Positions 1,219 to 53,658 of a DNA stretch of 64,000 nt are shown here, piece after piece. Made by a program: the position numbers and the translations under genes. Every line of letters begins with the position of its first letter. The first letter of the stretch is position 1. Below the pieces are notes generated by a model. That model made no database searches, had not been told where the DNA came from, and saw only the letters and a list, made by a program, of their open reading frames with translations. This DNA comes from Verpa conica (taxonomy: Eukaryota > Ascomycota > Pezizomycetes > Pezizales > Morchellaceae). The DNA is taken from NCBI GenBank assembly GCA_033030425.1, contig JAUFSD010000005.1, positions 1,167,001-1,231,000 on the forward strand. The letters are read 5' to 3'.

Positions 1219-1246
1219 TACGGCGGCACGTAGTTACAAAGGTCCA
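1219..1246 (+). repeat. E1 left terminal inverted repeat
   Basis: These 28 bp are the reverse complement of 7126-7153, with one mismatch that is a T/C transition at position 16. Beyond base 28 the similarity continues more weakly, with a shared CGGGT-GCA stretch after small gaps. Confidence 0.88.
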
Positions 1247-1308
1247 GACAGCCGGGTAGCAGCGCCCAGCAAAATTTGGCCGACAGCCATGATTCGCTTA
1301 TAACCCAA

Positions 1309-1410
1309 ACTTTTTTTTCTACCCACCCACCCACGCTGCTTATCCCCTGCCCCCTGCCCCCTGCCCCTGCCCCCTGCCCTCCTACTCCCCTCCACTTTGC
1401 TTCTCCAGTT
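1309..1410 (+). promoter_or_regulatory. Pyrimidine-rich promoter tract upstream of E1 oxygenase
   Basis: The plus strand is almost purely C/T here: a T8 run, then ACCC repeats, then several CCCCTG units. It ends about 75 bases before the oxygenase ATG. CT-rich tracts just upstream of starts are common in filamentous-fungal promoters. No TATA box is obvious. Confidence 0.4.
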
Positions 1411-1485
1411 TCCTCGAACTAGTAACTGCCTTAGAGTATCAACTTGTGTACACTGTTGAGATTTAAGTAGTGAAAATTTGAAAAC

Positions 1486-2972
1486 ATGGTTAAGAGAAAG
1501 CTGGAAAACAAAAATTCCTCGAGCTTTATTTATGATGCCTTTTGTATGCTTGCGAGCAATCTTCTAAAATCCCCTAATCTTTTTGACTCCTTTCTTTCTT
1601 CCTTCGAAACCACCAACAGAGCCATTATTAGCGAGTTTGTAAGAAATGGACTTTCAGAAATGGATCTTTACTTTCATGATGAATTGTCAGATTCCGATCT
1701 CTTTTCCCAATTTATAAACCATCTTTCAGTTTGTAAAACTTGTATATCCAATGCAACTCTCACTTCGGGCCTATCAACTATGCGGACCCAACAAAAAGAA
1801 TATCGGAAAGAGCATAATCTTTTAGTGCTAAAGCTAGGACTTTCTCGGAAACCAGCTTCTCGAGATGCATTTCTTGCCGACCTTGAATCAGCTTTACCAG
1901 TTAAACTTCTCGACAATCCTTTTCCTCCACCAAACACTTGGGTTTCTTTATCAGAAAGTATTACTTCGTTATGGGAAACTCATTTGGCAACAATTCGCTT
2001 GAATGATAAAAGACATACAAGACGAGCAATTCTTACCTGCACCAACTTGGATCAATGGCAAAAAATTATTACCGAAAATGAAAGCTGCATTGTCAGAAAT
2101 GAAACTGGTGAACTAGTTTGTATTGTGATTAGAAATTTCATTGATGATGAAACTACTCGTGCTTGGGCCGATGGAATTATTGCAGCTGCAATTGACAGAA
2201 AAAAGAGTGTTCGAGTAAGTCAAAATTCAATTTCCCTAAAAATTTAAACTATTATTAACTTATAATATAGTTGGATGATCCAGGAAAATTAGTTCTCGAA
2301 GGATATTCAGCAGGAGCTTTAAGTCAACCAAGTTTTGCATGGACTCAAAATCTTCTTTCAAAAAATTACACTCCAAATCAACTTGCCGAATTAAAATACC
2401 AAAGTGCATCAGTATTTGCTCTATTTTGGAATGTTTCCAGACAAATTCTTCCACCTGCTGTTATTGACGATTACAACAAATATTTGGAGGAAAACTTGAT
2501 GTGTCGAATGAATTTGGTTACCAGAAAACCAGATATTGTTGGAAGCTATTCAATTGGTCGGCATACTTTTAACAGCTGTGAATTGGCTCCACCATTGGGG
2601 CATTTTGCCAAAAATTATATTCGATATACTCATAAAGAATACAATGCAACAAAATACATGATTGCTTGGACAACAAATCGGAGTACTACAAAAGGTAAAG
2701 AAGCTGGTGGACATTTCTATATAGCTGATTATGGAATCTTGATTGAAGGGTCTTCCAATTCACTCGTGGTTTGGGAACCTGGTAAATACCATGGTACAAC
2801 TTTGACAGCAATTGACCCGATGGATTTAAATCCAGATTTTGTTCAAAGTGGTGTTAGTATTGCACTTTCTAATAGACTTGCGAAAGCTTGGAAATTGTCT
2901 TGCCAACAGGAATTGACGATGGAGGAGGAAAAAATGGCTTTAGAAAATGATTCTGATGGAGAAGAAAAATAG
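1486..2972 (+). CDS. 2OG-Fe(II) oxygenase-like protein of E1
   Basis: Exons are 1486-2214 and 2271-2972; a 56-bp intron (GTAAGT...ATAG) joins them in phase 0 to give 476 aa. The C-terminal half has the layout of a double-stranded beta-helix oxygenase. VIRNFIDDE near residue 213 resembles the usual entry segment. A candidate H-x-E metal motif is H364-K-E366 (YTHKEY). Then come GGHFYIADYG near 389 and a second candidate metal histidine, H417, in WEPGKYHGTTL. A late QSGVSIALSNR with R445 could bind 2-oxoglutarate. The closest family I can name is the fungal Tet-like 2OG-Fe(II) oxygenases, linked to TET/JBP, which act on nucleic-acid bases. Substrate is unknown. The acidic tail ends DGEEK. The gene converges on the transposase, with only 34 bp between stop codons. 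The use of E rather than D in the first motif lowers certainty about activity. Confidence 0.75.
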
Positions 2973-3006
2973 ATTAACTTTGTAGTTTAACTTAATACTA
3001 AATTAC

Positions 3007-4793
3007 TTAATAATCTGTATTATCACTAGAATCTGAATCTGTATAATCATCTTCGCTTTCTCCTAAAAATTCTGCTTCTGGTACAATAGCAGGCAGTTGA
3101 TTTTCTTGATGATATGTGATTTCCTTAGGCTTTGCAAGTAATGAAAGAATCGGATTCTGATTGCCTTTAGCAACATGACTTCTAATATTTGCTCGTAGGA
3201 AACAATACATAATATAGTGTAATTGAAGTCCATTAGCTGCTCGTTCTTCATATTTCACCCTGGAAGGATATCCACCTTTTGTAAGGAGTTTATTACAATA
3301 TTGCATTGTTATATCGGGAAGATAAATATTATGATCTAGATTTAGAGTAAGTTTAGCTTATTTAATTAATTAGAGAATTGTCTTACCATAATATTCACTA
3401 GTATTTCTATTTTTCAACATATTGTCACGAATATATTGTACTTGATCGAAACATGGTTTTTGAGCATAGTTTATAATATTATCAGGTGGAAAATAATAGT
3501 TGTAGTAGGGTTCACCAGTTGGAAGATTTGGTCGGTTTGATTGCTTGCGAATCTTATGTTTATTCCATAAAGAAACAAACTCGTTTAATCGTTCTCTTAT
3601 CATAGGTAAATATATATAGAGAAGTGCAATATTGTCTTCAATACTAGTTTCACAAAAGAGATTCTCTTGCTGCAGTAATATAAAATAAGACTAAAATATA
3701 TAATCAGCTTTATAGAAATAGATATATTAAAATAATAGTTACCTTCCACTCGACTGTTGCTCCTGAAGTAAGTCTCCCCCACCAGCTTTCAATTCGTACA
3801 TTTCTTGTTGAAGTCCCATACCAAAATGTTTCAGGAAATGTGATATTAGGTGTATCAACTTTATGTAAACTCCAAAAAGCTTCTGCGATCATCATGGTTT
3901 CAGAGCCCCTATCAGCACGAAGATGCATAGGAAGGCACGAATGCACACTAATGACTTCAAGAAACTGGCTTAAAACACTGACTCCTGTTCTTCCCGATAC
4001 TCCACAATAAAACCAAGGAACATATCGGGAATATGAATCAATCGCTGCATATATTTCCACTCCAAACATCTGTAGCTTTAGGTGACCATCAATTGACCAA
4101 CACCAGTTTGGGCCAGGGCAAACAAATTGTGTATGATGGCGATTGACACCTCGCCAGCGATTTTCTACACCAATCGGATCGATAATCCTCAATGATTGAG
4201 ATATTTGTTCACTATATTGTTTAAATTAGAAAGTAAATAAGATTGATAGATTGATAACTTACTGAGAAGCTAAAACTCCTAAGTTTCGTAGATGAATCCA
4301 TACCGATCGTCTTCCAGCTAAAGTAATTTTCCCTTTTTCTAATTCTGTCTCAATAATTTCTCGTAACCTAACATCTCTATTGTTTCCTTGTAAGGAAAGT
4401 GATTGTTGTCTAAACATTCCCATGGATTTTCGAATTGTTTGTAATCTTCGTAATTCAATTTTATATCCATTGATTTTTAAAATCTGTAAACTAGATTAAT
4501 CAAAAGTTAAAAATATACAGAAATAGAATTACCCTTAATATTTTTTGATCATTTAAGCACTTGATCCAAAAGAGAAATGCAATTTCTACTCGCAGTGATG
4601 GTGTATCCTCTGATTGGAGATTTTTAGTGAATGACCATTCTTTTAGTTTAGCCATTAGTGTCGAGCGAGAACACATAATTCCTTGGGATTTAAGGCTTTG
4701 AAGAGTATAGTCGACTGTATTGTTGTGCTCAATATATGTGTTGTATATAAAAGCTTTCTGATTAGAGAGGAGCTGAGAAACTGTAGGAGACAT
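3007..4793 (-). CDS. DDE integrase-type transposase of E1
   Basis: Five exons on the minus strand (4793-4533, 4483-4263, 4211-3743, 3669-3387, 3335-3007) join in frame to 520 aa; introns are 49, 51, 73 and 51 bp. Residues 1-87 hold a helix-turn-helix-like segment (CSRSTLMAKLKEWSF) resembling fungal Clr5-type N-termini. The middle is an integrase core with D202 in CWSIDGHLKL, D261 in LRADRGSE and E302 in NVRIESWWG, a DDE spacing typical of retroviral-like integrases. NLFCETSIEDNIALLYIYLP followed by RERLNEFVSLWNKHKIR matches the conserved C-terminal part of fungal and animal 'integrase core' proteins. The tail is acidic (DDYTDSDSSDNTDY). All catalytic residues are present and there is no stop or frameshift, so the enzyme could be active. 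It presumably cuts and joins the E1 termini. Confidence 0.88.
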
Positions 4794-4890
4794 GGAATGT
4801 ATAAATAAATTTTCAATTCAATAGAAAGTATTAAAGTTAACTTGAATGTATTTCAACAGTTGGTATAAGCAACTATTTCTACTTGTTGAA

Positions 4891-5160
4891 TCACCACTAC
4901 CCATCAGGCCACCACTACCCTTCGAGCCACCACTACCCTTTGAGCCACCACTATCCATCGGGCCACCACTATCTGTCTGGCCTCCACTACCCGTTGGGCC
5001 TCCGCTACCCGTCTGGCCTCCACTACCCGTCAGGCCTCCGCTACCCGTCGGGCCACCACTACCCGTCGGGCCACCACTACCCATCGGGCCTCCGCTACCC
5101 GTCGGGCCACCACTACCCATTGGGCTACTACTACTTGTTGGGCCATCACTATCTGTCGAA
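4891..5160. repeat. 18-bp minisatellite between two E1 genes
   Basis: About 15 copies of an 18-bp unit close to GGGCCACCACTACCCGTC lie in the 460-bp space between the divergent transposase and third gene. The unit is a multiple of three, so both strands stay open and give Pro-rich or Gly-Ser-rich spurious reading frames. It may separate or drive the two divergent promoters. Confidence 0.85.
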
Positions 5161-5252
5161 CTACTACCATTTATTACTTTTTTCCCCCTAATATAAACCT
5201 TTGCTCACTACTATACGATCTACCTGCAAATCTCAATTACTTTTTTACTATC

Positions 5253-6690
5253 ATGTCTTCATCAATTACATATCCTGTTGAGTACTGTGGCAAACGAGAA
5301 AACACAATTCATGCAAAGACAACTGATTTTGTATTTCGGTGTTGTGGTGAAAAAGTTCCATCTCATTTACATCTTAAAACACTGCAACTTCGATCAAGAA
5401 ACAAATCACCACCCCCATCTGGTACTCTCAAAATAGGAAAGCGAAAAGATAAAGGAAAAAGTAAAGCTTTGCCAGTACTCCCTGATACTGTTTTAATTAT
5501 ATCCAGTCCTGAACTATCACCAATTGAAGAATCTATAATAAAAGCAGGTCAGTTAACCGACCGAACAATTGTTGAATCATACCGACAAAGCTCAATTAAA
5601 AAAACTACAGAAAACAAATCCCAAAACAAATCCCAGTATGGACTAGCACCTGCTATTTCCTTTTCAACTACCGAATTATCTAAAAGAACTAGTGCTCGAG
5701 ATTCTCGAAAACTGGTTGTTTTTGTTGGCTCATGTACAGCTCGATGGTCATTATACAAAAATCTAGGTAGAGTTTGAACTCCATAATGCCTTTTTATATC
5801 TAATAATGTTTTAGGAGTTTCTTCCAAAGTTTTTGATAATCTTGATGAAGTAATTGAAGACTTTGATGAGTTTTCTCGCATGTTGTTAAATTCTTCTCCC
5901 AACTGGCTAGATGCCGAAGCGAATAATCTTGCATATTTGGATATACAACAAGTTATTTTAGCTACACAGTTCACTCCAAAAGAAGGTCCACATCGTCTAG
6001 AAGCTCGAAAAAAATCAGTTACTGTTTCTGAATTTTTAATGGACTTTCCTGGTGGTGCTTCGACAAAGATTTTTATAATCGTCAAGTATCAGTCAGCTGA
6101 AGAAAGAGCTGAACAAATTCGGATACACCAAGAATCGTCTAATTTATTTCTACAAAACATCAAATCAGAACATAAGATTGAGATTGATAGTTTGGTAAAA
6201 ACAAAAGAAAAATCGGATGAAATGACAGATCCATCAACTAGTTTGGAGGTAGGTTTCAAATATATACAGATAAAAAATCTCAACTAATATATAATATACA
6301 ATTATTCTATAGTTAATAGATACAACTCTACCAGTTAAACGAACTGTATCCATGCGTCAAATATCCGACCCACAATCGTCCTCTCCTATTCCAAAAAAGA
6401 ACCGATATATATCTCCCGATCTACCAATATTACCGACTCTGGAGTTTGGAGAATCAGTTATCCAATATACTCAACCTCGTGGTATAGCTTCCTCTCCACC
6501 CGAAATGCCTGGTCCTATTTCTTTTATAGTACATAATCGGGAGTTCTCTGGCAGAGATATTGATACAGATATTATATTAGATACAAATGAAATGGATACA
6601 GAAATATCTCAAGTAGAGACTGGGCGAAAATATCTGTTAAGAAAACATAGCTGTAAAGAATTTAAAAATTCTTATAAAGAGGGAAAATAG
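5253..6690 (+). CDS. Unknown third protein of E1
   Basis: Three exons (5253-5766, 5815-6248, 6313-6690) with 48- and 64-bp introns keep one frame and give 441 aa. I do not recognise the family. The N-terminus has a Cys/His patch (RCCGEKVPSHLH, near residues 29-40) that could bind a metal. A basic, Ser/Pro-rich segment with KRKDKGKSK follows. The middle has a predicted helical region (DNLDEVIEDFDEFSRMLLNS) and a strand-like FLMDFPGGASTKIFIIVKY. A charged segment around EERAEQIRIHQES could be a short coiled coil. The gene is divergent from the transposase. Its position inside the element suggests an accessory DNA-binding or regulatory role; that is inference from place only. Confidence 0.8.
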
Positions 6691-7125
6691 TTTTTTGTAA
6701 AATTTAATTTATATGTTTGGGCAGCAAAACGAGTCACCCCAGCCATCCTTTCCACACTTAATCACCTGCCATCTGGTGGGCTTGGTAGGAGCACCATTAG
6801 CCGTTTCAAGCAGACGATAATGCAGTAAGGAATAGCTGGGGAATTACACCACAGTTCTTCGTGGGGGCAACCCTCTTACCCGTTTTAGGGGTCCCTCAAT
6901 TAGAAATCTTACCATAGAACAATCTTAAATTTCTTAAAGAAAGTCCCAAACCGAAGGGATTTGAACCTAAGTCCATTCCTCATTGAGTGGTAAGATAGCT
7001 GTCAGTTATTTCTACTATACTATCAGATATATTTTACTTTAAAATTAAATCTTCATGTAAGCAACTCTTTTACAAGTATTTGATTAGGTGGTTGCACAAT
7101 GTTGGTTGCCACCCGAATGTCAGAT
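6691..7125. other. Non-coding right end of E1
   Basis: No open frame is present between the third gene and the right terminus. On the minus strand GGTTCAAATCCC (about 6953-6964) looks like a pol III B-box, but no tRNA fold could be drawn around it. Confidence 0.5.
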
Positions 7126-7153
7126 TGGACCTTTGTAGCTACGTGCCGCCGTA
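7126..7153 (-). repeat. E1 right terminal inverted repeat
   Basis: Reverse complement of 1219-1246 with one transition. It is directly followed by the second CATACC copy at 7154-7159. Confidence 0.88.
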
Positions 7154-7159
7154 CATACC
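7154..7159. repeat. Target-site duplication of E1, right copy (CATACC)
   Basis: Identical to 1213-1218 and immediately outside the right terminus. Confidence 0.8.
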
Positions 7160-8974
7160 CGACATGTAGGTAGATAATAAACAGAAGTGCTGGTTTGTGT
7201 ATTACACTACTCTCTGAAATGCCTAAGTAGAACGCGCCACAATATAATATTCAGCTACCTAAACTTCCGATGTTCACCGCTCTCAGTCTGTGTTCACGAT
7301 GGCCGGATAAAGAAAGGGTCTTGGCAATAAGATAGCGATATACAAGTTATTAGATTATTAATGCAGCACAGTCGAAAATGGCCAATGTGGCGCTTGCAGC
7401 TAGCACTCTAGCCGTAATCGTTTCTTGGCAGGGTCTCCAACTCAGGGGTCCTAGCCAATAGGAAGATAGTGGATGAACGTATCAAATATCCGACCAGCAG
7501 TGGCGATTGTGCATTCAACTTGCTTTCACAGAAGATATCACCATCTTACTGTCTGTATATCCGATCGGATTGGGTCGTTTAGTGCCCCTTGGTTGCTTGT
7601 TGTACATACTGCTGGCGTATCACAGTAACCAAGTAACCCCGGCTAGAATCCTGAGGTTTACCATACTTTGGCATTTGGCTGTTCTAGTAGAGTCTACAGT
7701 GGAGCCCATAGCAGAATGTACTGTATAACCGTTTAGAGTTCCTGGGCTATTTCGGTGTGTAGCTTTGAGTAGTGCTTCTTTTGGTTAGTGGAAGCTCAAG
7801 AGGTGGAGTCGGGGATCAATATAAGGAACGATCAAACGAGGTGAGAATTAGCTTTCCTTCGCTAAGTTTGCATTTGTATAGCCTATATATTCATATACTG
7901 AGCCGTAAACGTGCGCCGGGGGGCTCAGGTGGCCAACACCATCCCTATAAACAGTACAGACTGGAAGCGGGGGCATATTGCCGTCGAACCGTCTGGGGGA
8001 GTGCAATCAGTGGCTGCTACTGAAATTCCGAGGTCGGGCACGGACCATATGAATTAAGCATAGAGAAATGGGCACGGGCCGTAGTTGCGATCGCGAGTGA
8101 TCATCCGTGAACATGCCGGCACTTATTCGTCACACAGTCTCTTGCTCGGTAGACGATAACACCAAGACTTTTGTGTCACATGTTCTTGCAACACTTATGG
8201 CACGCTAAATTTTAATCGCCACCCGCCCATTCACCGCGCCGGGTAAAGGGTTTCGGAGGTAGCGAGAGCGGTACACAGATTATTAGATTATTAGCACTAT
8301 ACAGATCTAAAGCAGGCACATAGAATCAGTAGACTAACCGTAATAACTACTTTGTGAGACACCTACTGAGGTTTCTGAGACATAGGTGGCATTGGTTATG
8401 GTGGGTACGTACAAACATTTGGGGCTAATATTCTTGCCTGAAAGTAGTGCTAATCTTCTTAGCATCTGTAATATGACTTGTAGGTTTGAATCTAGTTTTG
8501 CCTAGCTTTTCCATGTGCAGCTTTTCCAGTCCTGGTACCACTTCCCCTACTCGAGGTTTTTCTTAAGATATGTAGTGATATTAGGTGATGATTCCACTTT
8601 AATGGCATGTATTCTCTTTTGTGCTGGAATAATGACCCCAGTTAGACCAGAGCTCCATGAAAGGATAAAGTAGTAGGTAGATATCAGAACCCAGTAGGGC
8701 CTAGAATCTGGAGAATAGGGCAGAAAATTGAGTCTCGGTCAAACCGACAAGTGCATAGCCAATAATGTGATCAATTAAGATCCAGCAGTTCAATATCGAT
8801 GATTCGATCTTGGTCTGATGTTAGTGGAAAATGCCGAAGTACAGTTACACGGTTGTGAACCGGCATTATTAGCCTGCCTTCTTGCAGACATTTTAGGAAT
8901 CTGTGGAACGTGATTTCATATCTCCCGTGAATAAAGAATCTCCCGGCCACGACCAGCTATCGATCGTGATCCTC
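7160..8974. other. Intergenic, with a degenerate duplication
   Basis: No supportable gene. Two stretches, about 7300-7365 and 8235-8310, look like decayed copies of one sequence: both run from a GCCGG(A/G)TAAAG-like start to TTATTAGATTATTA. This is compatible with an old, mutated repeat. Confidence 0.35.
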
Positions 8975-8981
8975 ATATTTG

Positions 8982-8988
8982 TATAAAT
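8982..8988 (+). promoter_or_regulatory. TATA box of secreted-protein gene at 9075
   Basis: TATAAAT stands 93 bp before the ATG. CACAGCTCC follows a few bases later, but the full leader motif of the other secreted-protein genes is missing here. Confidence 0.5.
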
Positions 8989-9074
8989 TGTCCACAGCTC
9001 CCGCTCAATCCTCCCCCTCTCTCTACCATCCATCACACTCTTCTCATAGTCACAATCGCCTTTTATATATCACC

Positions 9075-9782
9075 ATGAAGCTAGAGTTCACTCTCCTCTC
9101 CCTGTTCGCCACTCTCGCGACCGTCTCTGCCGTGACTATCCGCGGGTTCACTGCTTACTCCTGCCCTATCTTTTCAGTGCAATGGGTTTGCTATAACATC
9201 CCCGCCGGTACCTGTTGTCTCTTCCCGCGTCCTATTCGCTCCATGCGTTGGACTCTTCCTACGGGCACGTATGTAAACCCATAAAACCTAGATATTCAGA
9301 ATATTACTAAAACCAAATAGTCGTGGTATCGGATACGCTGGCAAATACTGCACTAAGGGTGTATACAGCCCTGTCTACGGTCCTCGTACCAATTCCTGCT
9401 TCAACTATGCCGCATCGAGCTATCGTACTGTCCCCTCTAGCTCTCCACCCTCCTCATAGACTCTCTCGCTGACTATTTTTTCATAGCCGTCTACTCCGCA
9501 AAATGGCAAAATGGCACTTGTATCTGGCAGTGGAAGCGCTCCGTGATTCTTGAGCGCGAAGAGTGTGCCATCGAAGAAGGATGTGTAGAGCCAACTGCCC
9601 TCATCTATTCCCCCGACTCAGGAAAGACCAACAGAACCATTTCAGTCCCGGCCGGCAGTGTCGAGAAGGTTGCACTCCTCCTCGAAAGTGCAGATTATAA
9701 GAGTTTGGCATCGTTCAGTGACTTGAGAGGTATGAATAGTGGTTCTATTGATGGAGATGATGGAGATGATGCTAATGGATGA
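9075..9782 (+). CDS. Small secreted Cys-containing protein
   Basis: Three exons (9075-9268, 9321-9424, 9487-9782) with 52- and 62-bp introns give 197 aa. The first donor is GTATGT; the second (GTACTG) is weaker but restores the long frame downstream. Residues 1-19 (MKLEFTLLSLFATLATVSA) are a clear signal peptide. The mature part has at least nine cysteines, including a CC pair in AGTCCLFPRP and the clusters KYCTKGVY, TNSCFNY and GTCIWQW, which suggests disulfides. The end is acidic (GSIDGDDGDDANG). I do not recognise the family; a secreted effector-like or cell-wall-associated role is a guess from the signal peptide and Cys content. It is the first and only multi-exon member of the secreted-protein tract. 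Confidence 0.7.
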
Positions 9783-10822: not shown

Positions 10823-10892
10823 CGTGAGGTTTGTTTGTAAAAATGAATGTGGGTAAAATGGACAAAATGAATGTAGGGTTTATTGTAGGGCC

Positions 10893-12137: not shown

Positions 12138-12245
12138 TATATAAGTTCTCAGGTTCGTACTCTAGCTATACCCTAAACCAAACCACAAACCGAAAACACA
12201 TCTACCCAAAGTCTTCAGCTGGGCTCAAGACACCACATTCATTTA
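12138..12245 (+). promoter_or_regulatory. TATA plus shared leader motif of gene 12293
   Basis: TATATAAG (12138-12145) is followed at 12216-12245 by CAGCTGGGCTCAAGAC then ACCACATTCATTTA. The spacing from TATA is 71 bp, so the motif should lie in the transcribed leader. Confidence 0.6.
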
Positions 12246-40599: not shown

Positions 40600-43500
40600 T
40601 TACCTATTATCATATAATCGTATGAACATGCTATCCTGCCACCAAGAGGCTGCCTTACTCTTCACTAGTCCACCCAGTGCTATATCTAGAAGATTAACAT
40701 CTGTCTTCCCGGCTCGTGTTGCATATTGTAGTGCTGTGTCCCCGTCGTTGTTTTTAGCTAGAACATCGGCACCCCCATCGAGTAGTAGCTGGACGACGGT
40801 ACTAAACCCACAAAGTGCCGCACAGTGCAGGGCTGTATTACCAACGTTGTTTTTTGTAGATACCTCAGCGCCCTCCTGCAGTAGCAGTTGCACTATATGT
40901 GTGTGTCCTCCAGTACCAGCATAGTGTAAAGCTGTGCTACCAACATCGTTCCTGCTTGACGGATCAGAGCCCTTCTCTATTAGTAGCTGGGCAGCAGCTT
41001 TATGTCCTTTTGTCGCGGCATAATGTAGTGGTGTATCCCCATTATGGTCCTTTACTGAGAATTCAGCATCGTTATCTAGTAATATTTGGATAACGGCCTC
41101 GTTTCCGCCGATCGCTGCAAAATGCAGTGCTGTTAATCCTGTCATATTCCGTAAGGGATGCTCTATCCCCTTATCAAGAAGAATCTTTACTAAAGCGACG
41201 TTTCCACTCTGTGCTGCAAGATGTAGAGCATTATTTCCAAATTTGTTAATGGTTGAAAGACTGGCACCCTTATAAAGAAGCAGCCGCACTAGTATATCGC
41301 TTCCTGCAAGTGCTGCAAAGTGAAGTGCCGTGCTATCGTTATTGTTTGACTCAGATATATCGACTCCGTGATCTAAAAGCTCTTCGACAACCTTTTGGTG
41401 CCCCTGGCGCACCGCCAGCTGGAGGGCCGTACCCCCATCGTTGTTCCGAGTAGAAGTATTGGCACCCTTCTCTAAGAGCATACAAACTATTCTTTTGTGT
41501 CCTTCCCAGGCTCCAAGGTGGAGGGCTGTATTTCCTTCTTTTTCTTGGGTCGAAATATCAAGACCCTTAGCTATCAGTAGCTCAGCGGCTATCCTATGCC
41601 CTCCAAACGCTGCGCTATGAAGAGGTGTATATCCGCTCTCATTAAGTGCCATAATATCTGCGCCATTATCTAGCAGAGTGTGGATTACAACCTTATGCCC
41701 TTGATAGGCTGCAAGATGGACACAAGTATTTCCTGCTTGGTCACGGTCGGAGATGTTAGCACCGTTAATTAAGAGCTGATGAACAACTTTGTCATGTCCG
41801 TTAGCCACAGCGGTGAGAAAGGCTGTTCTTTGATGCATATTCTGGGCTGACAGGTCGGCGCCTTTATCTAACAGGAGCTGAACCACAGTTCTGTCTCCAC
41901 CAGAGGCTGCATGGTGGAGGGCTGTAGATCCGGAACTATCTTGAAATGAGAGATGGGGCCCATTTTCTAAGAGGATCTGCACAACCTTCTCGTGGCCTTG
42001 ATATGCTGCGGCTAATAAAGGTGTTGTTCCTTCAGTATTGGCCATAGAAGCCTCCGCACCTTCCTCTAATAGTAGCTGAACTACATCCTCGTACCCCCGA
42101 TGTGCGGCGATAAGAAGGGGTGTAGTATTTTTCAGATCCCGAGAAGAAACATCGGCGCCTTTATCTAAAAGCAACTGAACTGCTTCTATATGCCCTCCGG
42201 CTACTGCCGCATGCAGAGCTGTAGTTCCTTCCACACCCCGCTCTTCGATGTCTACTCCACTCTCCAGTAGAACTTGTATGACTTCTGTACTTCCACCAGA
42301 AGCCGCAATCTGGAGTATTGTTTGTCCATGGTCATCGGTGACTGATAGGCTGGCCCCCTCTTGGAGTAGTCGACGAACAATATCAACATGTCCAATATAT
42401 GAAGCTATATATAATGGAACGCATATCCTCTGATAGCTCTCTGGAGAGATCCATCCGCCAAACCTCTCCTCGTAATTACGAAAGACCTGCACGGCTGAAC
42501 CCATGTTACCAGGGCTTTCCAAGCACTTAAGACATGCATGGGTTAATAAGTTCTGGTCGGAGGCTTTGATATGATATGATAAATAACGGGAAGCGTAGTC
42601 TAGAAAAGGGTATGTCTTAAGCCGGGCCTGAAAGGATACATAGGACGTACAGGGGCCTTGCGCAAAGGCTTTGAACGAAACGTAAGTAGTGCAAGCTACA
42701 GCGACTATGGTATTTGATTGCTCCGGAATAACAGACCTTCTCAGGAGGTATTCCTGAACAGTGAAGTGAGTGAGGCGAATATGGCTGCTATCTCCATCCA
42801 CAGTCACAAGACCTGCGCAAACATCGAGAACTGTCGCCTTATCGGGTAGATCCATCTTGTCAAGTTCGTATCTATCCGGTTCTATTGATACTGCCACTCG
42901 AAGCTCATCTACTGTAAGCGTCCGCTGAGCCTTGACGAGCCACAAAAGGATCATTTGCCCCAGCTTTGCACAGCTTTCTGATTGGCTGTGGATTCTTTCA
43001 ATACATCTGTCATAGGCTGACTCCAGAGGCCCAGCCCCTGCGGAAGCACTTCTCAACTTAGCTAGTGCAGTCAACAACTGCTTTGTGGTGGTTTGTTGAC
43101 ATAAATACTCTATGTGGAAGTAGACGACCAAAAACCTATCCGAATCAGTATGCTACTAAGATATCGGTGAACCAAATTACCCACATCCCCTGTGCACAAT
43201 CAATAAGCTCAGCGATTATTCTCCCTTGACATCTTGCCTGCTCAATCAGGCGACTTGCCCGGGGACTGTCATTAATTCTCTGCTGGACATAGATCTCGAT
43301 ATCTTCTTTTTGTGCTGACAATTCGATCTTTGACCAGCCCTGAAACGATTTCTGAATATCTTCAGGATATTGTCGACTAGTAACGAATAGGCTAGCACCG
43401 TCCCTTCCCATTCGGTGGAATAACGGAAATAAATGTTTTCGTTGGCTGTACGGGTCACATTCGTCCAACGCGTCAAAGACCAAAAAAACACGAGTAAATG

Positions 43501-44704
43501 ATTTCAATGCCACAAGAAAGGCTCCATAAAATTCCTCAAATTTCGCTTGCTTCCCTTTTGCAACTAGCGTATCGTGCAGGTTTTCAATATCTGTGGGGAG
43601 GTCATCGATTTGGGTTGACAACTGTTTGACCAAGCTGCCAAGCACTCTATGGGGGGTTTGTTGTTCTCTATCCTGGTATTCAAAATAGATATAAGCAACC
43701 CCGTAGCTCTTCGTAACTGCTTCCTCTTCCAGATAGTCGATGACGACAGAGCTATAGTATTTCAAGTTATCAGCTGTCAAATATCTACGACCACAAAATA
43801 GAATATTATTTACCTTAATATTGTTTTTCCCGCCCCAGCTATTGCACCTGGGGTTAGTCCTGACCTCGAGTACCAGTAGAAGTCTGTTCACATACGGATA
43901 CCATAGCCCCACAACATTTGATGGTCTGGATGCTTCTTGAGCTGCTTCTGGAATTTTGGTGTCATTATAGCCATTTACCGGTACCCGGTTGCCTTCTATT
44001 TGTTATCTCAAAGTGTTTTGTGCTTGGGTCCCCTGTATATAACCAGTTGAGAACTTTGGCGCGTTTTTCAGCTGAGGCCGTAATAAATTAGTTTTATAAC
44101 CCCATCTATGAGCATGGTATATGGCCTTCTTACCTAAATTAGATGCTTCTTGGGTGGTAGCTATATCCTGGAGACTACGAACAGCTAGATTTGTATCCTT
44201 GACAAACCTCCCAATTTCCTTCGAAACTGACCTTGAACTCTTGTGAGTATTAATCAAGCCTATTGTATAGCTCGGGAATCATGACCAAACTCACAAATTG
44301 TCTGTAGTTATGGCAAATATGATCAAGCTCTTCTGTCGCTCGATCCGCGAGATATAACTCAATGTGTCCTTCTCCCTAATTGGCCATTTAAGCCTTCCAA
44401 CAATCCCCTTTAGACTCTCTGTCTCCAGCATCGACTCCAGTGCTTTCAGGTCATCAAGGCATATCTGGATCGGTCCATCTTTGGCATCAAGTACCTTCAC
44501 CGCCGCTGAATTCGGGTATCTATCGGTGTAGTCCTTTAAGATGATGAGTTGCTTGCCGAGCGAGCTTAGTTCGTTCAGTAATTCCGCTATATCCTTTGGT
44601 GCTCGCTTTACCCCGCTGATGTAGCCGTAAGTGATGGCAGTCAGTTTCCCTGTGAGTTGGATGAGGGCGATAATACTCGCAGCAAGGCCCACAACATCAG
44701 CCAT
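40600..44704 (-). pseudogene. NACHT-ankyrin STAND (NLR-like) gene, one apparent frameshift
   Basis: Six exons on the minus strand: 44704-44295, 44231-44134, 44071-43896, 43847-43814, 43751-43185, 43135-40600 (the first splice is the least certain). The N-terminus (MADVVGLAASIIALIQLTGK) is the fungal STAND N-terminal helical domain. Then come RAKVLNWLYTGDP and QPGTGKW, the Walker A motif AIAGAGKTIL (split by an intron), Walker B in VFLVFDALDEC, and the winged-helix region ending LTHFTVQEYLL. Last are 18 regular 33-aa ankyrin repeats. Such proteins act as intracellular sensors in fungi (self/non-self or partner recognition). Between GTGKW and PKFQKQLKK one base is missing (near 43960-43970) and TAA follows the Trp-Leu codons. 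So this copy is either a recent pseudogene or has a base-call error; all other frames are intact. Confidence 0.8.
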
Positions 44705-45467: not shown

Positions 45468-47631
45468 TCAAATCTTAGAGCTTAATACTTTCTTCGCCTC
45501 CCTGTGCTGTGTGATCCTTTCCGAAGCCCACCAGGAGCCAATAGTTACCCCCATCAAAGCTACAGTGACTACGATATACACCCATATTTCCTTAGCCACT
45601 GTGATATGTGAAACAACCCTCCCATCTTTCTCTTCAAGTTTAGAATGTATGATGTTCATCCCAAAAACGGTCTGTACAAATATCAGAGACGTTTCATTGC
45701 GAGGCGGATATAGAACTGAATGCCTACCGCAACAAAAGTCGCTGGAAGGTACATCATTGCAACAATGGTGATTATCTTCACTGTGTGAGAATCTCGTTTC
45801 GTCCTCTGGGAAATTTCAAGCATCTGCAAAGCATCATCCCTAGATTTCTCGGCAGCTATGAGTAAACGGCGTGTGCCCTCCGAGTAATCCTTGATAGTAG
45901 AGTCGTTCCGAAGCTCAAGGAATGTTTTTGCCTATACTTGTAGTGTTAAAGGTGTGCGTGAGAAAAATATGACAGTGAACCTCACCATCTTAGCTGAACC
46001 ATCCACAACCTGTAGGATCGATCTCAAATTCCGCTGTAGTGATTTTATACGATACTCCTGATGCGCAAGTATCTCTGAAGACTCCAAGAAGAGCCCGCTT
46101 CCTGATATCAACTGCAGGTCTCTCAAATGTAATAGGTACCTTTGAAAGCCTAGGATAACATCCAAATTCGATTCAAGAACTTGTAAACCCGCTAGGATCT
46201 TATCCCTGAAATACCTTTGAAGTTTCCGATAATCCGAATAACTCAGTGGGATATCACCAGAAGTTCTGAAGTTATCCATTTGGTCGTTAGAAAGTACTAG
46301 CAATGGCTTACGCTATAACGTAGACCATGGGTCAGTTATAAATGGTAAAGATCCAAGTAGTGGTCAAACAAACTAGCTGCGTCAACTCCTCCTCTAAGTA
46401 CGCTACGTATTCTTCCCAGTTTTCCATGGCGCTGACTAAATAGCTAAGGTGCAACGATACCGGGTCTGGCTGCGGCAATTTTTTGAAGTTCCCTTGTTGT
46501 ATTGCCTCAAGTAGTACCCCCTTTACTTGTGTCGAAGGCTGAATATAGATATGTACGGAGGCTTGAGTCCTAAAATCATATTTGAGATAAAAGCCCATTT
46601 TCCGTACTGCCCAAGGATCTATAGTATCCCCGATATGGCGCTGAACATGCACAAAGCTGAAACAAAGCTCTAATACCCATGTATCAGCATGAGTATTATC
46701 TAGTGAAGGATTTCGGCCTACCTGAGCAAGCGACGGAGTCGCTAGGTGTTTCTATGCTCATCTTCATTCGAAATCCCGAGAAGGATACAATCGGCTCAAG
46801 ATTTCGCTTCTTGAAGAAACCTATAACATTCAGGAAATATGGGAACACTTGGTGAAATGTAAAAGCTTTCGAAGCATTTCTTCAGTTATGAACATTTCGC
46901 TCCACGAGTTTTTTTATTCAATTAGGCTGAAACAACTTAGCGTCAAAGCTTCTAAGGGGTAATGAGGAAAATTCTCTGGATTTGAAGGCGAGGGAGGAGG
47001 GTATCTAAGGTAGAATGCCTGCATCGGCTCGTACCGAGAACTTCCGTAGGTGACTATTTTGGGATCCGTTCTTAGAATACTCCGTACGATTGCAAGTTCT
47101 TCCTTAAAAACTCTCCTCTTTATTATCCAAACTTTTCCAGGCGCTTCGTATATAGGCTAATAGCTTTTGGATTGAGCAACCTACAATGATCTGAAATGGA
47201 ATTCCTTCTGATCCTAGAATTAAATGTTAGCGGTGAAAAAGCTAACTCGATAGAGACACAAACCATCAGTATGCCCTCTAGATTGTTCATATCGGCCATT
47301 AAATTAGTTACCTTTCTGTTAGCAAGGCACCTGAAGTTTCCATTAGGATGGGGCACAAACAAACATCTGTTGATGGTTCAGGTAGACCCCATACTTCCAA
47401 CCTTGGATTTATAGTACAAAACAGCTTATCTCTCTCAGCGGTAAGGCGGGAGGAGTATACGGACAAGTCCGGGCGGATACTACTACAAACAGGAAGATTT
47501 AGGGGGTAACTTTCCCAGCCATCAAATTCCGGTGATGCGTTCATTTCTTCCAATTGTTTAGCATTCATGAGTATGTTTTTGGAACTTGGCTGTAGTGAAG
47601 AACCATTTCGGGGGCTATTGTTTGAAGCCAT
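45468..47631 (-). pseudogene. CorA-like membrane transporter gene, 5' half damaged
   Basis: The 3' exons are clear and in frame: 46669-46374, 46312-45986, 45931-45728 and 45671-45468. They carry IDPWAVRKMGFYLKYDF, the fungal CorA-like cytoplasmic domain, then MMYLPATFVATVFGMN (first membrane helix with the GMN signature of Mg2+ channels) and a second helix IWVYIVVTVALMGVTIGSWW. Upstream, exon 47631-47312 gives a fitting N-terminus (FDGWESYPLNLPV). The middle exon ending at 46722 reads well (FPYFLNVIGFFKKRNLEPIV) but needs two repairs: a TAA at 46916-46914 where GAA-TAA-AAA suggests CAA became TAA, and one missing base near 46875. The parts between 47213 and about 47000 are unresolved. Probably a decaying copy of a magnesium-transporter-like gene. 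Confidence 0.7.
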
Positions 47632-48226
47632 GGTTGCTTCCCTGTAATTGAAACTGGCAAAGAATATTAGAGATATGCCGGGTTTGAATAGTCAAGAGCA
47701 GCTCTACGATCGGAAGATTTTAGGCTCTATCTAATTTTCAACAAATAAAGAAATGACATCGCAGTACACACCATGTGTATTTGGATACACACGAATAATA
47801 TAAATGAGAGACTTGCCACCCCTATCTTTGATATGCAGTCCTGTATAATATAGGGCGGGCAGCGATCCGCAGCTCGCGATATTTACTGTGCCCTAGCTAG
47901 GAAAATTAATGGACTAAACGGACTGCTTCCCGTAGGCGGCCTAGAACGTGACATACTGTAAGAGAGCACTGATAGCCGCTGAGCGCCTTTTAGAACGCCC
48001 CAGCAAGAAATCCCAGAACGGTTCTCGCCGGTGCCCGCCTAGATTGCATGTAACTACTAAGTACATCACTTAATACGTCTATGTTTCTCGCTCTATTTAC
48101 TGGGGCTGTGGTTTTCTTGTTGTCGCAGAGCCTCATTGAGGAAGCTTACGTAACTACCAATCATCACTCAGGTTGGCTTGGCGATACGATAGTGATAGTG
48201 ATAGCAACCGATTCCACAGTTGCTCA
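47632..48226. other. Intergenic flank left of transposon E2
   Basis: Promoter side of the CorA-like gene. Nothing else seen. Confidence 0.4.
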
Positions 48227-48234
48227 CCCATAAC
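48227..48234. repeat. Target-site duplication of E2, left copy (CCCATAAC)
   Basis: Eight bases identical to 53659-53666, directly outside both ends of the element. Eight bases is the rule for hAT transposons. Confidence 0.92.
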
Positions 48235-48307
48235 CAGTCTTATTGACGGTTCGGTCGAACCGCGGTCGACGCCGGTCGCACAATGCCAAGTCAGTCCAGT
48301 CGGACCA

Positions 48308-48337
48308 CAGTCAGACTAATTAGGACCACAGTCGACT
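48308..48337 (+). repeat. E2 subterminal 30-bp inverted repeat, left
   Basis: Starts CAGTCAGACTAATTAGGACC and is the exact reverse complement of 53556-53585. Many shorter CAGTC/GACTG and GGTCG units surround it on both sides, as expected of subterminal transposase-binding sites. Confidence 0.9.
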
Positions 48338-48386
48338 GTGGACTGCATGAGGACTGCATGGAGGCTCCTAGATGCAGTGGATTGAA

Positions 48387-48449
48387 GATAGAATTTGCGT
48401 TGATGGAGGCACATTGAATGGAGGTGGATAGAATTTGCGTTGATGGAGG
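48387..48449. repeat. Short 40-bp tandem duplication in E2
   Basis: A 23-bp block beginning GATAGAATTTGCGTTGATGG occurs at 48387 and again at 48427, before the oxygenase promoter. Confidence 0.75.
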
Positions 48450-48504
48450 TGAATAGAATGTACATTGAAGTAAATAGAATAGTGAGCTAGTGTGATATCT
48501 GTGC

Positions 48505-48511
48505 TATAAAA
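48505..48511 (+). promoter_or_regulatory. TATA box of E2 oxygenase gene
   Basis: CTATAAAAG, 236 bp before the ATG, followed by a pyrimidine-rich stretch (48520-48555). Confidence 0.55.
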
Positions 48512-48746
48512 GACACGCTGTTTCCCCCTTTCCCCCTTTCTTTCTTCTTCCTCATCCACACTTCTTAGCTGTTCAGAACTGATTAACATCATCTGGCGGG
48601 TAAAAGTCATTTTCTTAAGAAATTTTGAGGTGGCTGTGTTTTTTTCCTTAATTTTTTTTTCTCTCAGTTAAAACAACCCAAGTATTGCAAGACGTAGTCT
48701 TGCATACAGGCTAATAAGTATTGAGCGTAGCTCTTTCTTGGAAGCA

Positions 48747-50027
48747 ATGGACAACAAACTTTCAGTACTCCAGTTTCCCATGGCACCAATGCGTACCGAC
48801 AAAGGAAAATTAAAAGCACCCCCCTATCTTGCAAAAGGCGACAAAAAGGACCTAAAACCTGCCCATTTAAATGATATCATTGATCATCAGTATGAACCCC
48901 ATGAAGCTCGAGCTATGGACGAAAACCACTCCAACTACGAAAAGCCAATTTCAGATAGAGATTTTGAAAAAAAACTCAATAAGTGGATGTGCTTGGCAAA
49001 GCCCACAAAAGAAAAATGCGAATTGGCAAAGCAACAAAAACAAGAAGTGTTTACTCATACATTTGGCGTACATAGTAAGTAAACTCTATATTCATAAAAT
49101 GAAAATACTAATTAATTTAATTTAGACAATATAATTGAAGTTTTTCTAAACTACAATCTGGACGACAAACGAACGCCTACTTCTTTACCTCATGGAACTC
49201 TTGACGACTTTGACTCACTCGGTAGTCAATTTACCCAAATTAAACTCCAGAACGGTGGATTTTATGTTGCTCTTGACAATCAATATCGGCGAATTTTTGT
49301 TCTTTTCAGCTCTGGTTTTGATATGGTTTATGGTCCGAAAATTGGGAGATGGATTGTGGAGTCAACAACATACAATATTGAAGAATATTGCGCGATTCAG
49401 CCACCACACATGCCACAAGATCAAAGACATAAAGAATATGAAGAATGGTTGCTTAGAAATCCACAATTTTGTTGGACCCCTTGGGCTAGAGCAGGAGTAT
49501 TTCATTGGGGGACTTGGATGGAGCGTGGACATATCGACAAAGGATCCTGCATTACTAGGGATACTAGCAACATTCCTCAACATGTTAAACCAGTTTTAGC
49601 AAAGCTTTTTCGAACTTTCGGCAATGTTACCAGAGCCAAAAGAATTTTACTTGGAGCTATCAATAGTGATATGAGAGATCTTTGTCAAACAATTGTTGAA
49701 CAGATGCCAGTGGAAAAAAAGCTATTCTGGATTACTAATAAAAAGGAATGCTTTGCTCTTCGTGCTTGCTTAGTCAATGTTTTCACAGAACCACATTATG
49801 ACGCTGGAGATTTGGATGAAGGTTGGGCATTAATGGCGCCATTAGGTGAGTACAAAGGAGGTGATCTTTGCATTACTCAATTAAAAAGAAGGTTTGAGTA
49901 TAAACCTGGAAGTATTGGTGCTATTATGGGTAGTAAATTGGAGCATTATACGTTATCTTGGAATGGTCTTAGGTATTGTTTAGTATCTACTTTGCATGAA
50001 GCTTTAAAACATGAATATAATTTGTAA
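48747..50027 (+). CDS. 2OG-Fe(II) oxygenase of hAT transposon E2
   Basis: Exons 48747-49074 and 49126-50027 (51-bp intron GTAAGT...TTAG) join to 409 aa. Residues 1-109 are charged and probably flexible. The C-terminal domain shows a full iron/2-oxoglutarate set: H333-x-D335 in EPHYDAGDLD, then GGDLCITQL, KPGSIGAIMGSKLEHYTLSW with the second metal histidine H383, and R392 (GLRYCLVS) to bind the 2-oxoglutarate carboxylate. H-to-H spacing is 50 residues and H-to-R is 9, the norm for this fold. The closest group I can name is the fungal Tet-like 2OG-Fe(II) oxygenases. Substrate is unknown; DNA or RNA bases are the favoured guess from the TET/JBP link. It converges on the transposase gene. The start is the first ATG in frame after the promoter. 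Confidence 0.82.
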
Positions 50028-50104
50028 AATAGAACTTAGATTAAAAACTAATTAAGTTTTTTACATGTATGAAAAAATATATATAATTAAAGATGTTTAC
50101 TACA

Positions 50105-50400
50105 CGTCCACACAACGTGCTCATACTACGCGTCCACACAACGTGCTCATACTACGCGTCCACACAACGTGCTCATACTACGTGTCCACACAAAGAGTTC
50201 ATACTACGCGTCCACACAAAGAGTTCATACTACGCGTCCACACAACCTGTTCATACTACGCGTCCACACAACCTGTTCATACTACGCGTCCACACAACCT
50301 GTTCATACTACGCGTCCACACAACGTGTTCATACTACGCGTCCACACAACGTGTTCATACTACACATCCACACAATGTATTTATACAATACGTCTACACT
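50105..50400. repeat. 26-bp minisatellite in E2
   Basis: About eleven copies of a 26-bp unit close to CGTCCACACAACGTGCTCAT followed by ACTACG. The unit is not a multiple of three, so each of the three frames reads the same STQ-HTTRPHN-like nonsense. More decayed copies of the CCACACAA core continue to about 50700. It separates the two convergent genes. Confidence 0.9.
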
Positions 50401-50783
50401 ACAAAATAATTTTTAGCAATATGTTTAAATGACTAGTTCACATAAAGTGCCCGCTCAATCAGTCTCTACAAAAAGCCACATAAAACATCCACATAAAAAG
50501 CCCATACAACCAGTATCTATAATATGTCCACTCCACTGGTCTCCACAATTCATCTACCCAACTAGTTTTCACGACTCATCTACGCAACCATACTCTACAA
50601 CCCATCCACGCAACCAGTTTCTGCAACATATCCACGCACCCAATCTTTGCCACATATCTACGTAACTAGTTTCTCCAATACATTCATCTAACCAGTTTCT
50701 ATTATACATTTACTGTATTGCTAGTTATTTACTTTAATTTGTCAGTATTTTAGAATCTAATAAACAATAGTTATAAGGACTAT

Positions 50784-53317
50784 TTACTTAATTGTTTCTA
50801 ATCGTAAACTGTCTTGTTCACTTTTTTCTAACATATCGGATATTTCAATTGCTGAATCAAACGCAATTAATCCTGCTTTTGCCCATGACTTTTGACATTC
50901 GCCAGCTTCTATTGTACAGCTATCAAGTCGGTTTCTTCGATCGGTAATCTGTTGTTTTGCACTGATAATATGATTAGCTTATATTTCTATTAGTTAAAAT
51001 ATAATTATATAGTATATTACCTGCTAAAAACACGTTCACATTCAGCAGACATTGCAGGAATAGAAAATGTATCTAGTGCAAGTATCGATAAACGGGGATA
51101 AAGTTGTCGGGCTTCAATCCACCAAGTGATAGGATTCTCTAAAATATCATCGTTTTGATATAGCCATCGCAGAAACCTGTCTAATTCATCTGTATTGGTG
51201 TGGGTTGATAGTTTAGGCTTTTTAAAATTCCGAGCAAAATCAGATGCAGTTCCTGTACTTGAGGTACTAGGATTAAAATCCCGTTTTGATGAACTAGAGG
51301 AAGATATTTGTTCAGTATGAAGAACTAGGTTTTTGTAAGTTGTTTCCCACAATATTTGAACCAATTCTTTTGCTTTTACTGTCCATTCTGGTCTTAATCC
51401 CCATCCATTTTTGATATCATCAAAAAATCCATCCATATTAGGATTCAGAATAATCGACGCACAAATAATAGGGGATAAACTTGTTAAGGAGTAGTATTTT
51501 TCAAGTTTTGTCCATGCCAGATCAAATGCTGAATACAGTACTACCGATTGACCTTTAAGTGAAGTTCTGGAATGAAGGAGGTGTCGACGAAAAAATTCAA
51601 AAGATGGATAGATATTGAATAAAAGACTTTGAGTTTGATTTCCTTCTAATGAGAGTGTTTCATTTCGGAATGGTACCAAAAAGTTAAATATCGTTTGGAG
51701 AACTATCCAATCCGAAGGCGTAAGTTGGTCTTTTGCTATAGAGTGTTTCGAATCGTTTGAAACCAAGTTTTGAATATGCAAATCAATAGCTAATTGAAGT
51801 TCTAGTGCTCGTTCTAATCCATCATGATCACCCGTCCATCTAGTAACATTGCCAAGAATTAGTCCTCGAGCTTGTGTGGTTTTACCTAATATAGTTTTAA
51901 CCGTAACGCTAAAAGCTTGACGGCGCTGTGGACTTCCTTGAATCCATACTGTTAGATTTCGAAGCTTTCCTAATGGTCCAATTTTTCTCCAACTCTCCAT
52001 CGCTAAATTTTCCTTTTCAATTGTATTTTTTTCTTCATAAGATCCTTTTAAACGCAAGGACTTCTTTCCATACAAAAAGACTTTAACTACTAAGTTTAGT
52101 ATATGTCCATAACAACGTATATAACGTTGATCCGCATTGAATGTTGGATCTGTAGGACGTGTACGGTTTTGGTTGATTTGGGTTTGAATGAATTGAAGAG
52201 CGGTTGTATTATTGCTAGCGTTATCAAGAGTGAAGTAACCGAGAGTTCTTTGTACTTGGAATTCGGTAATTACCGACCATACTAGTGCGCCTTGGTTGTC
52301 ACCACTATGTGCTCCGATTAGGTCCCTTAAACCTAACAATCCATGCCGGATAACACCACCACTATCAAGCCAGTGTCCAACTACTCCAAGCAGTGCAAGA
52401 TTATTTGGAGAGGTCCAAAGGTCAAAACTCATATGTATTGAGGAGACCGCACTAGAGAGCAGTGTTTTGACCCGTTCTTTATTAGCCGTAAACGAGTTTA
52501 CTACCCATGTAGCAATAGTAGATGATGATTTAGGAAGAGCTTTAGTTAACTCGGTAAAAGAAGCTTGCTAATCAAAAGTTAGTTTATATAGAATAGAGAA
52601 TATTAAATTCCACTTACAACCGCACAAAGATACATGAGTAACAGCTTTAAAACTGGAGAAACTGCTTGATTGAAAGGTATATTATGCATGATAATCCACC
52701 GTATAAAAAGATGTTTAAAAACATCTTTATTGAATGCTAGTTTAGGTAAAGATGAGATATTGCTTTGGTCGTATACTAGAGTGGGTATTGGAGGATCGGA
52801 TACGGAGTTTTTAAAATTTGAGGCTAGTGGTGATGAAGGACTTCCATTTCGGTAAAATTCATGGTATTTAACCAAATGATCTATTGCATTTTTGGTTGTG
52901 GTATCGGCATAATGTACAGCGGTTTCTGGATTTGGACCTATTTATAAAATGAATTTAATTAAACCATTTAAATAGAAAAGATTAGTAGGATTGGATCTTA
53001 CATAAATGACATCTCCACCGGTTTCTTATAACCCCGTATCTATCAGGACCTTGATATAAACCGCCATGCCTCCATATCCAACTAGTTCTTTCTCTAGCTT
53101 TGGGAAGAAATGCTTCTGGAATCAATCCTTGTGAATGACTACGTTGTAATCCCGATGGATTTGTACTAATTGATCCGGAAACACTACCAGAAGCACTAGC
53201 TGTAAGCGAATTTTCCGGGTTTTCATTAGAGCTTGACGCAACAGAAAACGTATCAAATGGTTCTGATTCTGGATCTAATAAAGCTGATAAAAGCTTTGAA
53301 TTGATTCTATTGTCCAT
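50784..53317 (-). CDS. hAT transposase of E2
   Basis: Four exons (53317-53002, 52937-52618, 52567-51021, 50961-50784) with introns of 64, 50 and 59 bp give 786 aa without a stop. A BED-type zinc finger spans the first junction: C103-x2-C106 (WRCHLC), H126 and H131. The RNase H-like core begins at SFDLWTSPN (D261). The second acidic residue is D327 in GYFTLDNASN, followed by C364-x2-H367 (CYGHILNLVV). The third lies in SAECERVFS (E721/E723). The C-terminal dimerisation part continues across the last intron as ITDRRNRLDSCTIEAGECQK. All canonical hAT motifs are present. It should bind the subterminal repeats and move E2 by cut and paste. The ATG chosen is the first true ATG in the frame. Confidence 0.93.
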
Positions 53318-53555
53318 TTGTAACAAAAATTTTACTTTCAGTGATGGTGGTTGTAGAGAAATTATGATGATTTGAGTGGAATTTTACGCGACGTGTCAAT
53401 TTATATCTCAATCTATATTACTATTCAATGCACAACCATATAATATACAAAATCTTTTAATTTGTAGCTATTATTCATTATAATTCTGCTCTTTCACTAG
53501 AATTTTATAAAAATATAAATTCTAATTATATAATGTTTTTGTTCTTTAGACTGAT

Positions 53556-53585
53556 AGTCGACTGTGGTCCTAATTAGTCTGACTG
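53556..53585 (-). repeat. E2 subterminal 30-bp inverted repeat, right
   Basis: Exact reverse complement of 48308-48337. Confidence 0.9.
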
Positions 53586-53658
53586 CAGTCGGACGGCGCC
53601 CAGCCAGTCCTCCCGGTTCCGTCTAATTTTAAGACCGACTAGACTGTTGGTTAAACTG

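Follow-up and report, generated by a model that had tools for sequence, protein, structure and literature searches.

We analysed a 64,000-nucleotide stretch of the Verpa conica genome (contig JAUFSD010000005.1, positions 1,167,001 to 1,231,000 of the forward strand; G000:C5:1167001-1231000 in our numbering), here called the window, and searched the whole genome of 45.8 Mb in 25 contigs. The window contains two complete, unrelated DNA transposons 41 kb apart, an IS3EU element (E1) and a hAT element (E2), each with a predicted oxygenase-like gene in its left part. From the sequences, we consider it somewhat probable that each element separately acquired a gene for a TET/JBP-like 2-oxoglutarate- and Fe(II)-dependent (2OG-Fe(II)) dioxygenase that would act against silencing. 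The two enzymes would oxidise a methylated base, most simply 5-methylcytosine (5mC), in or near the element's own DNA, and the host cytosine methyltransferases, with three candidate loci, would then silence and mutate the element less.

Two complete transposons and their genes

The features of E1 and E2 are as follows (window coordinates; TSD, target site duplication; TIR, terminal inverted repeat).

1213-1218: left TSD of E1, CATACC, 6 bp (right copy 7154-7159)
1219-7153: E1, complete IS3EU element, from TSD, termini and integrase
1219-1261: left TIR of E1, TACGGCGGCACGTAG.., 83% over 43-47 bp, 19/20 terminal bases
1486-2214, plus strand: predicted exon 1 of the E1 oxygenase-like gene (GT..AG intron 2215-2270)
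2271-2972, plus strand: exon 2 of this gene, with HxE (HKE), a downstream HGTT and a weak PF20515 Tet-like match
3007-4793, minus strand: IS3EU transposase gene of E1 with several introns, its ends placed by reading and its core exon at 3710-4192
5253-6690, plus strand: third predicted E1 gene, conserved in sister IS3EU elements, where pieces of it show 55-65% identity
7107-7153: right TIR of E1, pairing with the left TIR
48227-48234: left TSD of E2, CCCATAAC, 8 bp (right copy 53659-53666)
48235-53658: E2, complete hAT element with CAGT..ACTG ends, from TSD and termini
48747-49074, plus strand: predicted exon 1 of the E2 TET gene (GT..AG intron 49075-49125)
49126-50027, plus strand: exon 2 of this gene, TET/JBP dioxygenase domain with HxD (HYD) and downstream H and R
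50784-53317, minus strand: hAT transposase gene of E2, with its ends placed by reading, its main open frame at 51017-52432 and its introns partly resolved

E1 is an IS3EU element, with a 6-bp TSD, TA..TA ends and an IS3-like DDE integrase core. Its ends read TACGGCGGCACGTAG(T/C)TACA with an inverted match at 19 of 20 terminal positions, and its termini, TACGG..CCGTA, fit the TAYGG..CCRTA rule; the published IS3EU criteria are a 6-bp TSD, TA..TA termini, TAYGG..CCRTA and a TIR of more than 30 bp (PMC10045372; PMC12730594). The core exon of the transposase matched PF24764 (rva_4) at E=2e-16 and rve at E=0.0013, and D, D and E residues were seen in it by reading. E2 is a hAT element. Its transposase matched the hAT dimerisation family PF05699 at E=3.5e-12 (46.4 bits against a cut-off of 21.4), its terminal inverted match covers 11 of 20 bases, and its 8-bp TSD falls outside the 7-bp criterion for hAT7.

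A sequence-only reading of the window had placed the two elements at these positions, each with an oxygenase gene at the left, on the plus strand and convergent to the transposase. Both placements and both gene arrangements were borne out, E1 by the CATACC duplication and the 19/20 TIR bases, and E2 by the 8-bp duplication and the CAGT..ACTG ends. Because termini, TSDs and open frames agree, E1 and E2 are not chance structures. The predicted E1 protein has 476 amino acids (gene 1486-2972) and the predicted E2 protein about 409, each from a gene with one intron.

The two enzymes

The sequence of the E2 gene product identifies it as a divergent TET/JBP dioxygenase of the HxD type. Residues 324-396 matched PF12851 (Tet_JBP) at E=7e-5, with 22.5 bits, below the cut-off of 34.9, and the protein matched chains of CcTet (Coprinopsis cinerea, AG type) at E=3e-5. 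A profile of the 21-row E2 family matched CcTet at 0.0086 and the Tet-like dioxygenase of Naegleria at 0.014. The HxD, distal H and 2OG-binding R of CcTet all aligned with this profile, the alignment being limited to the catalytic core. HxD was conserved in 19 of the 21 aligned rows, the exceptions being P0007, with N for D, and P0008, which is without the motif. Among the 20 homologues, all nine with a species name belong to Morchella, Tuber or Choiromyces, and one (P0004) carries a precomputed PF12851 assignment. The HYD of E2 sets it apart from PE-type TETs, which have HxE. The E2 enzyme is also detectably related to an HxD-type TET on contig C18 (locus L061), as 0 of 500 shuffles reached the alignment score. 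Neither genome_contigs (51 pattern matches) nor viral_contigs (13) yielded a confirmed locus when we looked there for E2-type genes together with their context.

The weak matches of the E1 gene suggest that it is probably a far-diverged Tet-like oxygenase of the HxE type. Three homologues were found (P0001-P0003), namely a metagenome protein and proteins of Amylocystis lapponica and Chiua virens, the last without the catalytic part. At the HxE position, E1 has HKE, P0001 has HHE and P0002 has HYE, and P0003 is without that part. PF20515 ('Tet-like 2OG-Fe(II) oxygenase') was matched by exon 2 of E1 (E=0.085) and by P0001 (E=0.058), both over the same region at one end of the family, and P0002 and P0003, searched likewise, gave no PF20515 match. 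When E1 was aligned with L068, a PF20515 member from this genome, HKE fell on HRD and HGTT on HGTT, and the aligned E1 stretch with HxE and the later H reads GHFYI..YGILI..VVW..HGTT. The scores of E1, P0001 and P0002 against this member were reached by 17, 5 and 12 of 500 shuffles, respectively, and the distal H was unpaired in the P0001-L068 alignment. A profile search for E1-type genes recovered two of the three known homologues and nothing new. The earlier claim of an oxygenase in both elements thus stands for E2, through its Tet_JBP and CcTet matches, and is not firmly confirmed for E1, whose PF20515 match lies below the cut-off.

Profile comparison of the two oxygenases with hhalign detected no homology (probability 0.24%), and their alignment score was reached by 94 of 500 shuffles. 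A common origin is thus unsupported. Because no homology is detectable between them, separate acquisition is favoured over one shared capture, and the sequences make separate captures the more likely history; both genes may instead have diverged extremely after one shared capture. The sequence-only reading had allowed for two captures or a very old one, and had proposed that transposons of more than one class adopted such genes as a help against silencing. Element-borne Tet-like genes in several classes, probably captured separately, are supported, and a role against silencing is plausible.

Copies and Tet-like loci across the genome

One full copy of E1 is present in the genome. Relics on C11 and C4 match its left end at 78-82% DNA identity and keep the start of exon 1 of the oxygenase gene, with pieces of the protein 61-71% identical. 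A sister IS3EU on C1 (L028 525-6924) has the TSD GCTGAC, 19/20 matching TIR bases and a transposase core 83% identical to that of E1, and in its left arm a different, unrecognised gene on the plus strand occupies the slot of the oxygenase. A relative on C8 (L027), 85% identical to E1 in the transposase core, likewise holds another gene, with no oxygenase detected, and its ends were not found. The third E1 gene had dN/dS (ratio of non-synonymous to synonymous rates) of 0.16 in exon 2 at dS 2.1, and two pieces of it searched against Pfam matched no family.

The gene in the slot of the sister elements (L028 (C1:3778000-3786000) 879-2354; L027 628-3369) contains a GKGKGK-rich stretch and gave only sub-threshold Pfam matches. 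Its C1 and C8 copies have dN/dS 0.81 from 27 differences, and it is a candidate for an alternative cargo of sister IS3EU elements. Over 5406 aligned bases, the C1 and C8 copies share 98.3% identity; in the transposase core, dS is 0.31 (25 synonymous differences in 153 codons), which suggests a recombined or converted patch.

E2 is likewise present in one full copy. A fragment on C16, 94-97% identical in DNA, corresponds to window 48531-50905, which covers the leader, the TET gene and the 3' end of the transposase gene. An insertion of 1.16 kb interrupts its exon 1, and its exon 2 frame is kept at 97% amino-acid identity. For TET exon 2, dN/dS between E2 and C16 was 0.28 (8 synonymous and 9 non-synonymous differences), which weakly indicates constraint on the gene. 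Other E2-type TETs lie on C20 (68%), with three stops, and on C4 (59%), with an open frame. Among the other hAT transposases, the closest has 38% identity to that of E2. The link between hAT and TET thus comes from a single complete element plus a fragment of that same element type. At L025 (C16:942000-950000) 2109-5748, a different repeat stands in inverted copies where the two E2 fragments end (31 bp; 66 bp plus about 305 bp), which would fit capture of the TET gene piece by a third repeat element.

We merged the matches of several searches into a set of 24 Tet-like loci, some of them weak matches, and counts from it are lower bounds. With uniform placement over the genome, 0.58 locus pairs within 48 kb are expected and 2 were observed; two Tet-like loci within 48 kb are in itself unsurprising. 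A Tet-like match within 10 kb was found at 5 of 21 IS3EU loci, including E1, against 0.22 expected under uniform placement, an expectation that is too low because transposons cluster. The Tet-like types within 10 kb of IS3EU transposases are HxE (E1), HxD (C18 and C11) and the PF20515 type. On C18, an IS3EU transposase and an HxD-type TET frame stand about 2 kb apart, and a search of that stretch for a TIR/TSD pair gave none that was convincing. Among 13 loci of Mutator-like elements (MULEs), one lies near a Tet-like locus.

Further associations were observed at individual loci. C15:1335615-1342394 and C24:644587-652388 carry Tet-like genes of PF20515, with 91% identity where they align. IS3EU transposase fragments lie 6-7 kb away, oriented alike relative to the gene at both loci, and these loci are probably copies of one larger element. 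The HxD-type TET frames at L061 (C18:42600-45842) and L045 (C23) look alike by reading, and TET exchange between element classes, the C18 IS3EU transposase on one side and a C23 helicase-like fragment on the other, is possible. Helicase-like fragments near TET loci matched UvrD_C_2 just above the cut-off (L045) and Pif1_2B at E=0.0084, below the cut-off (L043); they may be Helitron remains, a label of our own. At C20:1039488-1050256, a MULE transposase (PF10551, E=3.7e-14), an E2-type TET pseudogene and an E1-type relic lie between 612-bp inverted repeats (79%). A MULE carrying both oxygenases was rejected here, as the arm is a dispersed repeat with 46 genome matches, the TSD search gave none that was convincing, and the E1-type relic runs beyond the right arm. 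In L026 (C20) 1081-3571, a MULE transposase with a SWIM finger lies close to an E2-type TET pseudogene in convergent orientation; element ends enclosing the two were sought and none established. MULEs are absent from the carriers named in the abstract of Kojima 2025 (PMC12730594).

These observations could also be read as the left-arm slot being an exchange site for anti-silencing genes, with IS3EU near several Tet-like types, a hAT with a further HxD type and a sister element with another protein. We regard this as rather doubtful; if it were true, the unrecognised C1/C8 protein would be a counter-silencing factor other than TET.

Host methylation and the role of the enzymes

Three host loci matched PF00145, all above the cut-off. 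By their motifs, two of them read as RID-like and DIM-2-like; Pfam gives only DNA_methylase. At CpG sites, C in E2 corresponded to T in C16 (either strand) at 24 of 127 positions, against 3 of 94 in reverse. The corresponding counts were 21/337 against 8/332 at CpA, 5/165 against 4/164 at CpC, and 10/255 against 6/255 at CpT. We infer that the broken C16 copy underwent C-to-T decay of methylated CpG. Repeat-induced point mutation (RIP) as the main decay was rejected: TA/AT is 0.86 in E1 and 0.91 in E2, (CA+TG)/(AC+GT) is 1.23 and 1.11, neither element passes both RIP composition thresholds, and the E2-C16 difference lies mainly at CpG.

Several results weigh against separately acquired anti-silencing dioxygenases, and some of them favour another role. 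In the E2 family, Asp replaces Gly331 and Ala replaces Asp337 of CcTet (numbering of Kojima 2025, PMC12730594), and Asp337 is reported to be essential for the 5mC activity of CcTet (PMC12730594). With these residues, 5mC oxidation by the E2 enzyme is therefore not to be assumed, and its substrate may differ from that of CcTet. The enzymes might act on N6-methyladenine (6mA), thymine, RNA or protein and have a role other than 5mC removal, for example in transposition or target choice; we consider this unlikely. The replaced residues and the HxE of E1 would suit such a role, as would the reports that CcTet also oxidises 6mA and that CMD1 puts a glyceryl group on 5mC (PMC12730594), whereas the PF00145 loci of the host and the E2 copy pair that differs mainly at CpG point to 5mC. 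The CpG asymmetry itself comes from one copy pair, unpolarised by an outgroup, and location or selection could account for it; the E2-C20, E1-C8 and C8-C1 pairs are without such asymmetry.

The sequence-only reading had counted copies without the oxygenase as refuting it. The C1 sister, with intact ends, has no detected oxygenase, which goes against that reading, and the two relics with the gene start go with it. Since neither C1 nor C8 has a detected oxygenase, the gene is not fixed in the IS3EU group of E1. Among hAT loci, eight of nine have no Tet-like match within 10 kb, E2 being the one that has. The genes might accordingly be passive cargo, host or element sequences captured to no benefit of the elements, as the broken C20 and C16 copies would also allow. 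This explanation has a low probability in our judgement. The two-exon frames are open in both complete elements, dN/dS between E2 and C16 is 0.28 (though from 17 differences), an E1-type gene start stands at the same position in two relics, and the association recurs in fungi (PMC12730594).

The remaining points concern E1. Its oxygenase assignment is below every curated cut-off, with 13.3 bits for PF20515 against a Pfam cut-off of 27. hhalign of E1 with two PF20515 members gave 1.4%, over a region without the catalytic motif, and the full-length protein matched no Pfam family at E<=1 or at E<=10. Its best PDB profile match, at E=0.42, was unrelated, and no homology with the E2 enzyme was found. 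It is thus conceivable, at rather long odds, that the E1 gene encodes no 2OG oxygenase and that E2 is the sole carrier. The alignment of HxE and the later H with HxD and H of a PF20515 member, the few shuffles reaching the three scores, and the shared PF20515 region of exon 2 and P0001 argue against this, as does HxE in place of HxD being the published hallmark of PE-type TETs (PMC12730594).

If the enzymes of E1 and E2 act as we propose, different transposon superfamilies in one ascomycete would have been armed separately against DNA methylation. The host seems to own the opposing methyltransferases, which would make this contest directly testable. The divergent enzymes, E1 with HxE and E2 without the Asp337 of CcTet, could also hold new DNA-oxidising activities.

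Known systems and neighbouring features

KDZ transposons are reported to carry TET/JBP genes (Iyer et al. 2014), a study that Kojima 2025 cites. E1 and E2 likewise combine a DNA transposon with a TET/JBP-like gene, and their transposases are IS3EU and hAT, not KDZ. Kojima 2025 described TET genes in 11 fungal DNA-transposon lineages and proposed escape from methylation and RIP (PMC12730594). These include TET+ hAT7 (20 families in six Puccinia species, PU type, 7-bp TSD) and TET+ IS3EU (seven rust species and Tuber indicum) (PMC12730594). The sequence-only reading knew of no description for hAT or for this integrase type, a statement outdated by that paper of December 2025. The Pezizomycotina carriers are Helitron and IS3EU, of the PE (HxE) type as we read it (PMC12730594). 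According to a 2026 review, functional characterisation is still awaited for the TETs that transposons encode in Basidiomycota and Pezizomycetes (PMC13297926).

E1 resembles the TET+ IS3EU elements, including IS3EU-1_TuIn of Tuber indicum (PE type), in its 6-bp TSD, TAYGG..CCRTA termini, IS3-like integrase and Tet-like gene, and it shares HxE with the PE type as published (PMC12730594). It differs in layout: in all published TET+ IS3EU, the TET gene lies between the transposase and an alpha-kinase gene (PMC12730594), whereas that of E1 is outermost on the left and convergent to the transposase. E2 shares with TET+ hAT7 of Puccinia a hAT transposase and a TET gene, but its TSD is 8 bp instead of 7 bp, the named relatives of its TET are in Morchella, Tuber and Choiromyces, and its TET gene and transposase converge, whereas in three hAT7 families of the P4 lineage TET lies upstream of the transposase and has the same orientation (PMC12730594). 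Among the literature matches listed, supplements aside, there was no TET+ hAT with an 8-bp TSD and no HxD-type TET transposon in Pezizomycetes. The combination in E2 (hAT, 8-bp TSD, HxD TET, Pezizomycete) looks new. Also new are the arrangement of the genes in E1 and a sister IS3EU whose slot holds a different gene.

L037 (TSD GCAGGG), L033 (TSD GTGATAAC) and L036 (no TSD found) are short elements, about 426-586 bp long, whose ends resemble those of E1 or E2, and they are probably non-autonomous derivatives. At L038 (C11), E1-type ends 8 kb apart enclose frames that read as a Ty3-like retrotransposon, probably a nested insertion. In the window, long frames at 40600-43912 and 58129-62070, within about 5 kb of E2 on both sides, read as ankyrin-repeat proteins, and one of them begins with a stretch that reads as kinase-like.

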